This document shows positions 29,250 to 33,343 of a stretch of DNA of 33,343 nucleotides, one piece after another. The DNA comes from a virus: IMG/VR virus record IMGVR_UViG_3300045921_000781, positions 1 to 33,343 of that record; one strand, written 5' to 3'. Under the pieces are notes generated by a model. The model did no database searches, was not told where the DNA came from, and saw nothing but the letters and a program-made list of their open reading frames with translations. Both the position numbers and the translations under genes were made by a program. Every line of letters starts with the position of its first letter. Positions within the stretch are counted from its first letter, which is position 1.

Positions 29250-31139
29250 ATGTCTACCAAGACTGATCTTAGGCAAACAAAATATGTTGGCGGAATTGAT
29301 CAACTAGCTACCACTCAGACAACTGAGGGTGACAATATTGTACAGTCAATTAACAGCGAGCTTACACCTCTACTCCGCTTATCTGCAAGCTCCCCCGTAT
29401 CTCTAGTTGTTAACGTAGGCGGTGGCGATCTGTTAAACGCCGAATCAAATCGTCGTAGAGCTATCCCTCATATTGGAACAGCCTATGTTCAGTTCACCTC
29501 TGGCACTGTAACCTTCCCTGCCTCTTCTGGTGGAAACATCACATGCTCTCCCGGCGGCACCACAGTGCTTAACGTAGCTAGCGGTAATTTTGCGGCAGTT
29601 CTTGTTTATCTTGATGGAGCTGGAAATTTAAACACTGTAGTGGGAACTGACGCTGCTACGGAATCCGCAGCTATCACTAACCTTCCACCTGCTCCAAAAA
29701 AGACTTTAGCTGCAGGTTTTGTAGTTGTACAGAATGTAGGTGGAACCATTCAGAATATAGCGCAAAACAACATTCGCCAATTTGGCGCAGGTAGCGGAGG
29801 AGGAGGCGGTTCAGGAGATGCCTCTGGTCTTTTAGAAGATTTTAAAAATCAATTAGTTGATTCTTATTATAATTTTTTATCTGCTGAAGATTTTGGAAAT
29901 ACAACAGATCTTGTTGATTCAGGAAATACTACCGCCGTGTATAATTTGCTATCTAGCTCCTATCACATGGCAACAGGTCAAAAACTTACAACTGAAAATT
30001 TATTAGATAGCGGCTTTTTTGATTTTAAGCAAGATATTGACCAAGCTATGGTTACTTTACGGTATGTGGATGGGTATGTAGATACAAACCCAACCGTAAA
30101 ACTAACAAGAAATAGCGGAGTTACTTGGCAAACCGTCACAATGTCTAGAAACGGACAGACAGAAGAGCTTAGCGGGGTATTGGATTTTGCAAACGAAACT
30201 CTCACACAAACTGCTACCTATACCGTAACAGGCAACAGAACCTTAAATACTAGCTCACAACAAAAGCTTGCTCAAATTTTAACTATTCCAGCCAATACAT
30301 TAAAATTAGTAAAAGACTTTACTTTTAATGTAACTAAAACAGGCAGCCCCAATGGAAAGCTAATAGTTAAGCTTGTAAAAGAGGTTTCTGGCAACCCCTC
30401 TCTTTTAGATGCCAACCTTATTAGCACAGTAGAAAAGGATATGTCAACTATCTCAACAGGCACTGTGACTGTAAACTTCGGAAACCAGATACTTAAGTCA
30501 GGAAACTATTACCTTCTTTTTGAAACCAATACGGCTTATCAAAACTCTTTTGTGTCTGGCACTACTGAATTACAAATTAGAACAAACACGATAACTCCAG
30601 ATGCCAAGGCTTACAACGGAACCTCTTGGTCGGCAATTTCTGGCGAGTCAATTCAGTATAGATACACTTATAAAGACATAAATCTAAAGCTGGAAGTAAC
30701 CGCAAGTGCCGCCAGTAGGCTGCTTGGGTTTGGAGTTTTATATCAAAAATTAAATGAACTTGTTTCGCCAGTATCTTACGACCAAATTATAGTGGGAAGC
30801 TCAGCTCAAGTAGACGCAGGGCTTGCCACACACTCATCTTTACAAGACGCGTTAAATAGTGTAGGATTTAATAAAAGAATAAAAGTTTTAGCCGAAACTA
30901 TTTCTGAAAACGTAACATTATCGCAAAACGACGTGACAATTGAAGGAGACGGTAGAGGTTCTGTTTTATCTGGAGATTTGACAATATCTGGAAATAATGT
31001 GGTTATTGAAAAAATGAGAATAACTGGAGATGTAACTATTAGCGGAAATTCTAATTTCTTAGATAAAGTATGGTTAAGTAATAGCTCAAATTTGACTGAT
31101 AATGGCGAAAACAACTCTATTACTGGAATTTTGGAGTAA
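29250..31139 (+). CDS. tail fibre/tailspike-like protein with C-terminal beta-helix
   Basis: 629 residues, SD AAGGGG. The N-terminal 180 residues are a beta-rich attachment part (SRRRAIPHIG-type region, PKKTLAAGFVVVQNVGG). A glycine-rich hinge follows (GAGSGGGGGSGDASG, about 179-193). The middle is a jelly-roll-like region (SNGKL-type strands, KLVKDFTFNVTK, SGNYYLLFETNTAYQNSF). The C-terminus (about 550-629) has stacked strands NVTLSQNDVTIEGDG, SGDLTISGNNVVIEKMRITG, DVTISGNSNFLDKV, typical of a right-handed beta-helix or pectate-lyase-like turn. No catalytic residues were recognised, so enzymatic activity is unproven. Confidence 0.75.
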   Translation: MSTKTDLRQTKYVGGIDQLATTQTTEGDNIVQSINSELTPLLRLSASSPVSLVVNVGGGDLLNAESNRRRAIPHIGTAYVQFTSGTVTFPASSGGNITCSPGGTTVLNVASGNFAAVLVYLDGAGNLNTVVGTDAATESAAITNLPPAPKKTLAAGFVVVQNVGGTIQNIAQNNIRQFGAGSGGGGGSGDASGLLEDFKNQLVDSYYNFLSAEDFGNTTDLVDSGNTTAVYNLLSSSYHMATGQKLTTENLLDSGFFDFKQDIDQAMVTLRYVDGYVDTNPTVKLTRNSGVTWQTVTMSRNGQTEELSGVLDFANETLTQTATYTVTGNRTLNTSSQQKLAQILTIPANTLKLVKDFTFNVTKTGSPNGKLIVKLVKEVSGNPSLLDANLISTVEKDMSTISTGTVTVNFGNQILKSGNYYLLFETNTAYQNSFVSGTTELQIRTNTITPDAKAYNGTSWSAISGESIQYRYTYKDINLKLEVTASAASRLLGFGVLYQKLNELVSPVSYDQIIVGSSAQVDAGLATHSSLQDALNSVGFNKRIKVLAETISENVTLSQNDVTIEGDGRGSVLSGDLTISGNNVVIEKMRITGDVTISGNSNFLDKVWLSNSSNLTDNGENNSITGILE

Positions 31140-31142
31140 AGT

Positions 31143-32264
31143 ATGAAATTTAAGATTAATAACGGCATCATTGAAAATTCTTCAAAATTTTCAGGAACAG
31201 ATGTTGGTGATATGTTTAAAAGTATTTCCTATGTAACAAATAGGAATTACAAGTTTAACACAATTAAGACTGGGTCTACCGAAACGCCTTCAGGTTCGTA
31301 TCCGGGGGGTACTTCTTTTGCCGGGGGAGTGCTATTGCCTGATGGTAAAGTATTTTGTGTACCTTATAGCTCAACCACGGCTAGAATTTATAATCCAGCA
31401 ACTGATACTTTAACTACTCCTTCTGGTACATATCCAGGATCTTTTGCTTTTGTTGGAGGAGTGTTATTACCAGATGGAAGAGTATTTTGTGTACCTAATA
31501 ACTCAACTACAGCTAGAATTTATAATTCAGTAACTGATACTTTAACTACTCCGAGTGGTACATATCCGGTATCTGAAGCTTTTCTTGGTGGAGTATTATT
31601 GCCTGATGGAAGAGTATTTTGTGCACCTTTAAACTCAACTACAGCCAGAATTTATAATCCAGCAACTGATACCTTAACTACACCAAGCGGGACATATCCG
31701 GGATCTGGTGCTTTTTCTGGAGGAGTATTGTTACCAGACGGAAGAGTATTTTGTGTTCCTCGCAACTCAACTACAGCCAGAATTTATAATCCAGCAACTG
31801 ATACCTTAACTACACCAAGTGGGACATATCCGGGATCTGGTGCTTTTTCTGGAGGAGTATTGTTGCCAGACGGAAGAGTATTTTGTGTTCCCCTTAGCTC
31901 AACCACGGCTAGAATTTATGATCCAGTAAATGATACCTTAACTACTCCTTCTGGTACATATCCGGGATCTCAGGCTTTTGGTAGCGGGGTATTATTGCCT
32001 GATGGTAGAGTGTTTTGTGTGCCTTATAACTCAACTACAGCTAGAATTTATAATCCTGTAACTGACACTTTAACTACTCCTTCAGGTACATATCCGGGAT
32101 CTCAGGCTTTTTCTGGAGGAGTATTGTTACCAGACGGAAGAGCATTCTGTGTACCTCTTGCCTCAACCACAGCTAGAATTTTGTCAGGCAGTTTTGATAA
32201 ATATACCAACCCTAACCAACTTCCTCTTCATATTTTGCTATCACCGTATTTAAACAAATTTTAA
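31143..32264 (+). CDS. seven-repeat kelch-like putative beta-propeller receptor-binding protein
   Basis: 373 residues: a 47-residue N-terminus, seven tandem 44-residue repeats (48-355) and an 18-residue tail. Consensus parts are TPSGTYPGSxAFxGGVLLPD, GRVFCVPxxSTTARIYNP, xTDTLT; the 'LPDGRVxxxP...ARIYNPxTDTLT' core resembles kelch and galactose-oxidase propeller repeats. Seven repeats equals the blade number of a closed seven-bladed propeller. Variation is concentrated at unit positions 10, 13, 28 and 29, plus 39-40. No signal peptide. Its place at the end of the fibre cluster suggests a receptor-binding tip, inferred from location and fold pattern. No SD close to ATG 31143, which is four bases after the previous stop. 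Confidence 0.8.
   Translation: MKFKINNGIIENSSKFSGTDVGDMFKSISYVTNRNYKFNTIKTGSTETPSGSYPGGTSFAGGVLLPDGKVFCVPYSSTTARIYNPATDTLTTPSGTYPGSFAFVGGVLLPDGRVFCVPNNSTTARIYNSVTDTLTTPSGTYPVSEAFLGGVLLPDGRVFCAPLNSTTARIYNPATDTLTTPSGTYPGSGAFSGGVLLPDGRVFCVPRNSTTARIYNPATDTLTTPSGTYPGSGAFSGGVLLPDGRVFCVPLSSTTARIYDPVNDTLTTPSGTYPGSQAFGSGVLLPDGRVFCVPYNSTTARIYNPVTDTLTTPSGTYPGSQAFSGGVLLPDGRAFCVPLASTTARILSGSFDKYTNPNQLPLHILLSPYLNKF
31284..32207 (+). repeat. seven tandem 132-base repeats coding kelch-like units
   Basis: Period 132 bases (44 codons). The protein framework is nearly constant while synonymous sites differ between units, except for some near-identical pairs (units 4 and 5, around 31680-31880). This shows both selection on protein and local homogenisation. 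Confidence 0.95.
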
Positions 32265-32277
32265 AAGGAGAAAAAAC

Positions 32278-32487
32278 ATGAAAACATTGAAAGTATTTAA
32301 TAATATAGCAGAAATCATAGATAACAATATTGTCGAATGTCGCCTTAGCAGGCAAGACGAAAAAAGCGAAGAGCTTGTTCAAGAAATGATTTCTTCTGGA
32401 GAATATAATGTTATAAACATAAACCAATCACCAGATTTGGCTAATGTTCCAGAAAATTTTGATTGGACGCAATCGTTAGAAAATTAA
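32278..32487 (+). CDS. 69-aa acidic protein between the two kelch-like genes
   Basis: Strong AAAGGAG SD at ATG 32278. Acidic, with MKTLKVFNNIAEIIDNNIVE at the start, a helix SRQDEKSEELVQEMISSG and a Trp near the end (ENFDWTQSLEN). No family known. Lying between two repeat genes, it may be a dedicated assembly partner or a tail-fibre chaperone; that is inferred only from place. Confidence 0.65.
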   Translation: MKTLKVFNNIAEIIDNNIVECRLSRQDEKSEELVQEMISSGEYNVININQSPDLANVPENFDWTQSLEN

Positions 32488-32509
32488 AATATAAGTAAAG
32501 GATATTGAC

Positions 32510-33343
32510 ATGTTGAAAATAGTAGGAAACCTTTTTCAAGGTTTAAGCTCTAAAACAAGTGAGCTAAGGCCTGATATTACTAAAATTTTGCGCACTGTTA
32601 CAAAAAGAAATAGGGATCACACTGGTCAATACTTTAACGCTCAAAATGCTTTTGTTGAAACTCCTGCTGGTACATATCCGGGATCTCTTGCTTTTGCTGG
32701 AGGGGTGTTGTTACCAGATGGAAGAGTATTTTGTGTACCTAATAGCTCAACTACAGCTAGAATTTATAATCCAGTAACTAATACTTTAACTACACCAAGT
32801 GGGACATATCCGGGATCTAATGCTTTGGAGGGCGGTGTATTGTTACCCGACGGAAGAGTGTTTTGTGTGCCTCGTAACTCAACCACAGCTAGAATTTATA
32901 ATCCAGTAACTAATACCTTAACTACACCAAGCGGTACGTATCCCGGATCTGATGCTTTTATTGGCGGTGTATTACTGCCTGATGGAAGAGTATTTTGTGT
33001 TCCCCTTAACTCAACCACAGCCAGAATTTATAATCCAGTAAATGATACCTTAACTACTCCTTCAGGTACATATCCGGGAACTGGCGCTTTTGTTGGAGGA
33101 GTGCTATTACCTGATGGTAGAGTGTTTTGTGTGCCTTATAACTCAACTACAGCTAGAATTTATAATCCTGTAACTGACACTTTAACTACTCCTTCTGGAA
33201 CATATCCGGGTTCTGGTGCTTTTGCTGGTGGGGTGTTGTTACCTGACGGAAGAGTATTTTGTGTACCTTATGCCTCAACTACAGCTAGAATTTATAATCC
33301 TGTAACCGATACTGTAACTACCCCTTCTGGTACATACCCGGGA
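32510..33343 (+). CDS. second kelch-like repeat protein (3' truncated by window edge)
   Basis: ATG 32510 with AAAGGA SD; the frame stays open to the last base (278 codons). The 50-residue N-terminus (MLKIVGNLFQGLSSKTSELR onward) is unlike that of its neighbour. Repeats start at residue 51; five complete 44-residue units and the beginning of a sixth are visible, with the same framework. An 86-base tract (33110-33195) is identical to 31998-32083 of the first gene, showing recent exchange or duplication. It is likely a second receptor-binding propeller with a different attachment end. Its full length is unknown. Confidence 0.8.
   Translation, partial: MLKIVGNLFQGLSSKTSELRPDITKILRTVTKRNRDHTGQYFNAQNAFVETPAGTYPGSLAFAGGVLLPDGRVFCVPNSSTTARIYNPVTNTLTTPSGTYPGSNALEGGVLLPDGRVFCVPRNSTTARIYNPVTNTLTTPSGTYPGSDAFIGGVLLPDGRVFCVPLNSTTARIYNPVNDTLTTPSGTYPGTGAFVGGVLLPDGRVFCVPYNSTTARIYNPVTDTLTTPSGTYPGSGAFAGGVLLPDGRVFCVPYASTTARIYNPVTDTVTTPSGTYPG
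32660..33343 (+). repeat. five-plus 132-base kelch-like repeats, continuing past the window
   Basis: Same unit as in 31284-32207. Five complete units span 32660-33319 and a sixth starts at 33320. Confidence 0.95.

Follow-up and report, generated by a model that had tools for sequence, protein, structure and literature searches.

Point mutation, gene swapping and retroelements are known sources of variation in phage adhesins, and those diversified by diversity-generating retroelements (DGRs), such as the tentaclins, reportedly pair a fixed scaffold with a set of variable positions. Beta-propellers serve as phage receptor-binding domains in the phi11 receptor-binding protein and PRD1 P2 and have been suggested, as speculation, for PhiKZ gp131C; they are described as single 5-bladed or 7-bladed domains (PMC4901313). 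Highly repetitive propellers have been amplified from single blades in every major lineage, including viruses (PMC9218822). In the fungus Podospora anserina, the HNWD NOD-like receptors (het-d, het-e and het-r) carry propeller repeats that evolve in concert with high internal identity, and a few of their codon positions are under diversifying selection and map to the interaction surface (PMC12222747).

Two adjacent genes, A and B, are described here from a viral stretch of 33,343 nucleotides (IMG/VR record IMGVR_UViG_3300045921_000781, positions 1 to 33,343; hereafter the window). The locus and its relatives bring together tandem repeats, positional variability, a predicted propeller, homogenisation within genomes, one conversion-like tract and whole-gene swaps.

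Results

Gene A (31143..32264, + strand, 373 aa) consists of a short N-terminal anchor, seven 44-residue blades and a C-terminal tail ending in LSPYLNKF. Its N-terminal segment (31143..31283, +) is gene-specific and orthologous to that of A in two other phages, L003 and L007, and its blade units A1-A7 (31284..32207, +) measure 132 bp (44 aa) each, A7 lacking the outer strand. Gene B (32510..33343, +, 278 aa) starts with a different N-terminal anchor, followed by five complete blades and a sixth that breaks off after 8 residues, where the reading frame runs open into the contig end (33343); its complete homologue in L003 has 374 aa and 7 units. Units of both arrays are spaced at exactly 44 residues, with a 132-bp period in both (Tandem Repeats Finder), and the open reading frame translations bear out the twin genes of 7 and at least 5 such units that had been noted from the sequence. 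A 69-aa open reading frame absent from that earlier description (32278..32487, +) separates A and B. The upstream neighbour (29250..31139, +, 629 aa) has no clear family match and occupies the same place in L003. Elsewhere in the window, a 48-bp direct repeat is present in two perfect copies at 1930-2025.

IMG/VR protein and profile searches returned 18 loci and then 75 loci, and removal of near duplicates left 72 non-redundant viral proteins with 263 core units. Most complete viral homologues have exactly seven units, a number that recurs in dozens of independent contigs, and a few have 4, 5, 6 or 8 (examples of other counts are L084:4651-6594, L012:9899-10729, L038:5866-6864 and L069:5875-7122). 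The six-unit type is probably real because it recurs in three related contigs (L038, L039 and L040). The C-terminal part of the four-unit L084 protein gave a poor monomer model (pLDDT 52.6) from a shallow alignment, and this four-blade form may be an assembly collapse or may need partners. Some phages carry three consecutive propeller genes (L003:8457-12502, L011:9689-13843 and L013:7830-12343); the third in L003 has a different, longer N-terminal anchor and blades homogenised with those of the other two. At their extreme C-terminus, nearly all members conserve an LS-x-x-x-N-K-(F/L/Y)-like motif (32238-32261 in the window) whatever their N-terminal anchor, with propeller closure, an oligomer contact or a chaperone site as candidate roles. 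Propeller arrays with a similar C-terminal motif also occur in metagenome bins labelled Afipia, Planctomycetaceae and a proteobacterium (L094:5656-7044, L095:5773-7080 and L096:40-1434), which are possibly phage or prophage contigs and would in that case hint at hosts.

Across units A1-6 and B1-5 taken together, amino acid identity averages 91.4% in the framework (outside positions 10, 13, 28 and 29) and only 13.3% at positions 10, 13 and 28; blade-to-blade identity is high, with medians of 0.84 (A1-6) and 0.86 (B1-5) at the amino acid level. In the same 11 units, with A7 left out, 16 of 34 minimum replacements fall on these three positions (P ~1e-5 under an even spread). Silent sites hold many differences between units (82% nucleotide identity), and the framework is rich in synonymous codon differences along its whole length, which argues for a framework held by purifying selection and not for a fresh copy. 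The uniform protein sequence is, on this codon evidence, maintained by selection and homogenisation and does not itself point to a very recent duplication.

The sequence-only reading named positions 10, 13, 28 and 29 as variable. Over the 263 core units, the highest entropies are at positions 13 (3.49 bits), 28 (3.40) and 10 (3.25), followed by 9 (2.27), with 3 (2.24), 29 (2.22) and 39 (2.12) at similar levels. Within proteins, the amino acid differs in 84% of blade pairs at position 13, 79% at 28, 76% at 10, 55% at 29 and 53% at 9; at most framework positions fewer than 20% of pairs differ in amino acid, and the differences are largely silent. Conservation of the ring positions in homologues would have counted against that reading; instead 10, 13 and 28 are the most variable positions there, while 29 is only moderately so, being no more variable by entropy than 9, 3 or 39. 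Eight residues were counted at position 10 in the window, in agreement with the figure of at least eight given earlier. A restriction of position 28 to Y, N, L and R holds in the window and fails in the homologues, which use 17 residues there, so the apparent restriction is a small-sample effect. Variability at 10, 13 and 28 could arise partly from relaxed constraint.

An AlphaFold2 monomer model of the gene A protein, built on a homologue alignment of 20 rows (pLDDT 90.4, pTM 0.89), is a seven-bladed propeller in which every unit folds into four strands: a (positions 12-17), b (23-27), c (34-37) and d (42-44). Foldseek against the PDB gave beta-propellers as top matches, including galactose oxidase and kelch proteins, and the seven-bladed virginiamycin B lyase Vgb aligns with an rmsd of ~3 A and a TM-score of 0.84-0.87 normalised by target length. 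The four-stranded blades are predicted to stand in a closed circular array, closure being judged from the Foldseek matches, and the propeller first proposed from the repeats is predicted with high confidence and with seven blades. Galactose oxidase and kelch-domain chains also rank first in a profile search of the PDB (1e-11 to 2e-9). Among Pfam kelch models, Kelch_6 matches 2 of 20 homologues (best 6e-6) and Kelch_1 matches 1 of 20, with no match in the window proteins. A WD40 identity was rejected, since the phmmer match to 2ymu (6e-34) pairs two repetitive sequences and the profile search favours the galactose oxidase and kelch chains. Matches of the window proteins to DUF4651, Parecho_VpG, ETM and other Pfam and PHROGs families were set aside as scattered, low-complexity artefacts of repetition; no single stretch of these proteins passes alone in the Pfam and PHROGs scans. 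The best structural match among viral predictions is Hokovirus HKV1 A0A1V0SG21 (rmsd 1.9 A, 338 columns, 27% identity), a giant-virus protein whose name refers to collagen repeats.

Positions 9-10 lie in the connection from strand d to strand a, position 13 comes second in strand a, and the b-to-c loop holds 28-29. In established propeller topology the d-to-a and b-to-c connections are on the same face. Strand order combined with this general topology would place the variable positions on one face of the propeller, with 10/13 and 28/29 together, consistent with the expectation that they align as a ring outside the core.

Phages carrying both A and B (the window, L003 and L007) were compared. 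N-terminal anchors are up to 72% identical between A genes, up to 70% between B genes and 17-33% between A and B, which marks A and B as separate, older lineages. The blades group by genome and not by gene: their nucleotide identity is 0.82 between A and B of the window versus 0.69 when window A is compared with the orthologue in L003, and 0.756 between A and B of L003 and 0.836 between A and B of L007 versus 0.685 between the A genes of these two phages, the orthologous gene in another phage giving 0.67-0.73. Same-index blades are hardly more alike than others, and across 29 seven-unit genes within-gene blade identity exceeds same-blade identity between genes in 372 of 406 pairs. In runs tests for blade exchange, P by permutation was below 0.01 for 8 of the 12 genes that could be tested and 0.015-0.017 for the window arrays taken together. 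These comparisons show concerted evolution of the blades, both within genes and between them.

A sister contig, IMGVR_UViG_3300044941_000368, is the same as the window over 33,305 overlapping bp except for nine substitutions within 57 bp. These fall in gene A at 31397-31453, inside a tract (31380..31456, +) whose counterpart in the sister contig reproduces 77 bp of gene B exactly. The donor-like stretch spans part of blades B4/B5 (33152..33228, +) and has the same sequence as the sister contig's gene A. The window's own version of the A2 tract has no close match among the other window units. In the sister contig the residue changes are F to G at A2 position 10, V to A at A2 position 13 and A to V at A1 position 39. 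Outside the substitutions, the identity of recipient and donor extends for 17 bp at the left junction and 3 bp at the right, and because only 3 bp are shared at the right junction a chimera of de Bruijn (k-mer) assembly is unlikely. The B-to-A tract has the appearance of a conversion-like event, a single clean case seen in metagenomic assemblies. Other close pairs were rejected as clean conversions: L053/L055/L056 and L080/L082 gave short or no exact donors, and L025/L028, with a 67-bp exact donor for one tract, adds no clean event.

Receptor-binding genes are commonly exchanged as cassettes. The propeller genes of L004 and L043 are 20.6% different, versus 1.05% elsewhere in the two contigs, with sharp borders and flanks that are ~99% identical, and L026 and L028 have the same propeller gene (0.3% different) in divergent flanks. 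All differences lie inside the propeller gene in some very close pairs (14 of 14 in L053/L055, 12 of 12 in L053/L056), and about half of the very close pairs show no excess there, some having no differences in the gene at all; hot-spot character is thus not universal.

Genes A and B close a contractile-tail structural module. Its upstream part encodes baseplate proteins, a protein resembling a fibre or decoration protein and one that weakly matches a sheath, and L003 has similar-sized genes in the same order. Pfam and PHROGs scans gave no tail-fibre family match to the window proteins themselves; the features of a tail-fibre or receptor-binding protein (tail module, anchor and chaperone) are found in the homologues and the gene context, with no such domain in the window proteins. 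The homologue in L084 is fused to a tail-fibre-type N-terminus (phrog_1640, 1e-26), that in L016 to a tail protein (phrog_6616, 2e-22), and in L026 a tail-fibre-assembly gene lies directly downstream of the propeller gene (phrog_4912, 7e-17), an arrangement typical of tail-fibre and chaperone pairs. A distant relative in a Vibrio phage, annotated as WD40/YVTN, sits beside a pectin-lyase-fold protein and behind tail genes. The fusions, the assembly gene and the whole-gene swaps support a role in host recognition, and A and B are most likely receptor-binding tail proteins, as far as homology and gene context indicate.

Discussion

Genes A and B probably encode twin tail-tip propeller adhesins with a variable ring for host contact, diversified by mutation, gene conversion between blades and gene exchange. 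The gene-specific N-terminal segment would attach each protein to the virion, and the remainder would fold into a closed seven-bladed beta-propeller that displays, on an almost fixed scaffold, a ring of ~7 x 3 variable side chains (positions 10, 13 and 28), with positions 9 and 29 as lesser contributors. The ring would contact the host surface, and changes in it would then alter host specificity. The ring positions may change by point mutation, under selection that is either relaxed or diversifying; gene conversion among blades, within one gene or across the twins, may hold the scaffold constant and bring ring residues into new combinations; and whole propeller genes also pass between phages.

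The propeller might instead be a virion structural or decoration protein, or resemble a lyase or oxidase, with weakly constrained surface sites and with blade uniformity arising from recent amplification only. Kelch-like virion structural proteins do occur in jumbo phages, the Foldseek matches include enzymes (Vgb lyase and galactose oxidase), and position 39, on the opposite face, is also moderately variable. However, an enzyme would be expected to have catalytic residues at unique sites and not repeated seven-fold, and weak surface constraint fits poorly with other positions in surface loops, such as 20 and 21 in the a-b loop, which are nearly fixed compared with 76-84% of blade pairs differing at 10, 13 and 28. 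Homogenisation of the twin genes and whole-gene swaps are, moreover, as expected for receptor-binding genes, and we regard this explanation as unlikely. That short-read metagenome assembly produced both the uniform repeats and the A/B tract as artefacts is less likely still: although both contigs end inside the gene B repeats, as happens when repeats break assemblies, and although the 4-6 units of a few homologues might be collapses, the silent-site divergence of the blades gives assemblers unique k-mers, seven units are found in contig after independent contig, and the short match at the tract's right junction argues against such an origin.

Mutagenesis of the variable positions by a DGR, or by the relic of one, would account for their codon usage, in which NNY codons encode 79-92% of degenerate residues (92% at position 29) and valine is GTY in 98% of cases versus 41% in the framework, a pattern that fits AAY-templated mutagenesis. 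Nevertheless, no reverse transcriptase (RVT_1) was detected in any of 16 contigs of up to 217 kb, which may be incomplete, and the window, a partial genome, has no template-repeat-like copy of a unit outside the arrays. Framework differences are also not limited to adenines, all 12 tandem units vary, and ordinary first- and second-base mutation among NNY-encoded residues explains the codon pattern equally well. The missing reverse transcriptase and template repeat favour ordinary NNY interchange, and a retroelement is very unlikely, the least probable of these explanations. The NNY codon memory at positions 10, 13, 28 and 29 of the homologues may be a general signature of residues that turn over rapidly.

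The twin-adhesin reading can be extended, tentatively and with rather less than even confidence, to a process like antigenic variation, in which tandem adhesin genes would act as mutual donor libraries and retroelement-free blade conversion would yield host-range variants in otherwise clonal populations. Conversion would then have to be continual and its rate high enough to produce such variants. A repeat propeller whose scaffold and contact residues follow opposite rules, with recombination carrying them from blade to blade and from one twin gene to the other, would add another route of adhesin variation, with a parallel in fungal self-recognition receptors. The window and its sister contig form a natural phage pair that differs, across the 33 kb shared, in one blade region only. 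The ring can be read from sequence as ~21 residues per propeller, a simple code for comparison with host range.

Like the HNWD receptors, A and B combine blades evolving in concert with a few hypervariable positions, here assigned to one face by strand order. The HNWD proteins are WD40 propellers with about 10-11 reported repeats that act as intracellular incompatibility sensors, whereas A and B are kelch/galactose-oxidase-like, lie in a phage tail module, mostly have exactly 7 units and occur as twin or triple genes; no NACHT match was found in the window proteins, so they do not qualify as WD40/NACHT receptors. A and B thus work like HNWD repeats but belong outside the HNWD family. With recently amplified propellers they share a high median blade identity (84-86% amino acid), but their blades are diverged at silent sites, have variable positions in common and are homogenised between two genes. 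Unlike in DGR adhesins, every blade takes part in the variation and recombination transfers it, and neither of the DGR components sought was found.

The sequence-only reading knew of no described phage adhesin of this form. Propeller receptor-binding proteins are in fact known, and near-identical blades, a variable ring and blade exchange are unreported for phi11 RBP, PRD1 P2 and PhiKZ gp131C in the passages on these proteins (PMC4901313). A search of the open-licence literature found no phage kelch or hypervariable propeller adhesin with such behaviour, and in this respect the form appears to be undescribed in phages. The parts themselves are of already known kinds, and what appears to be new is their evolution, by a variable ring and the copying of blades.
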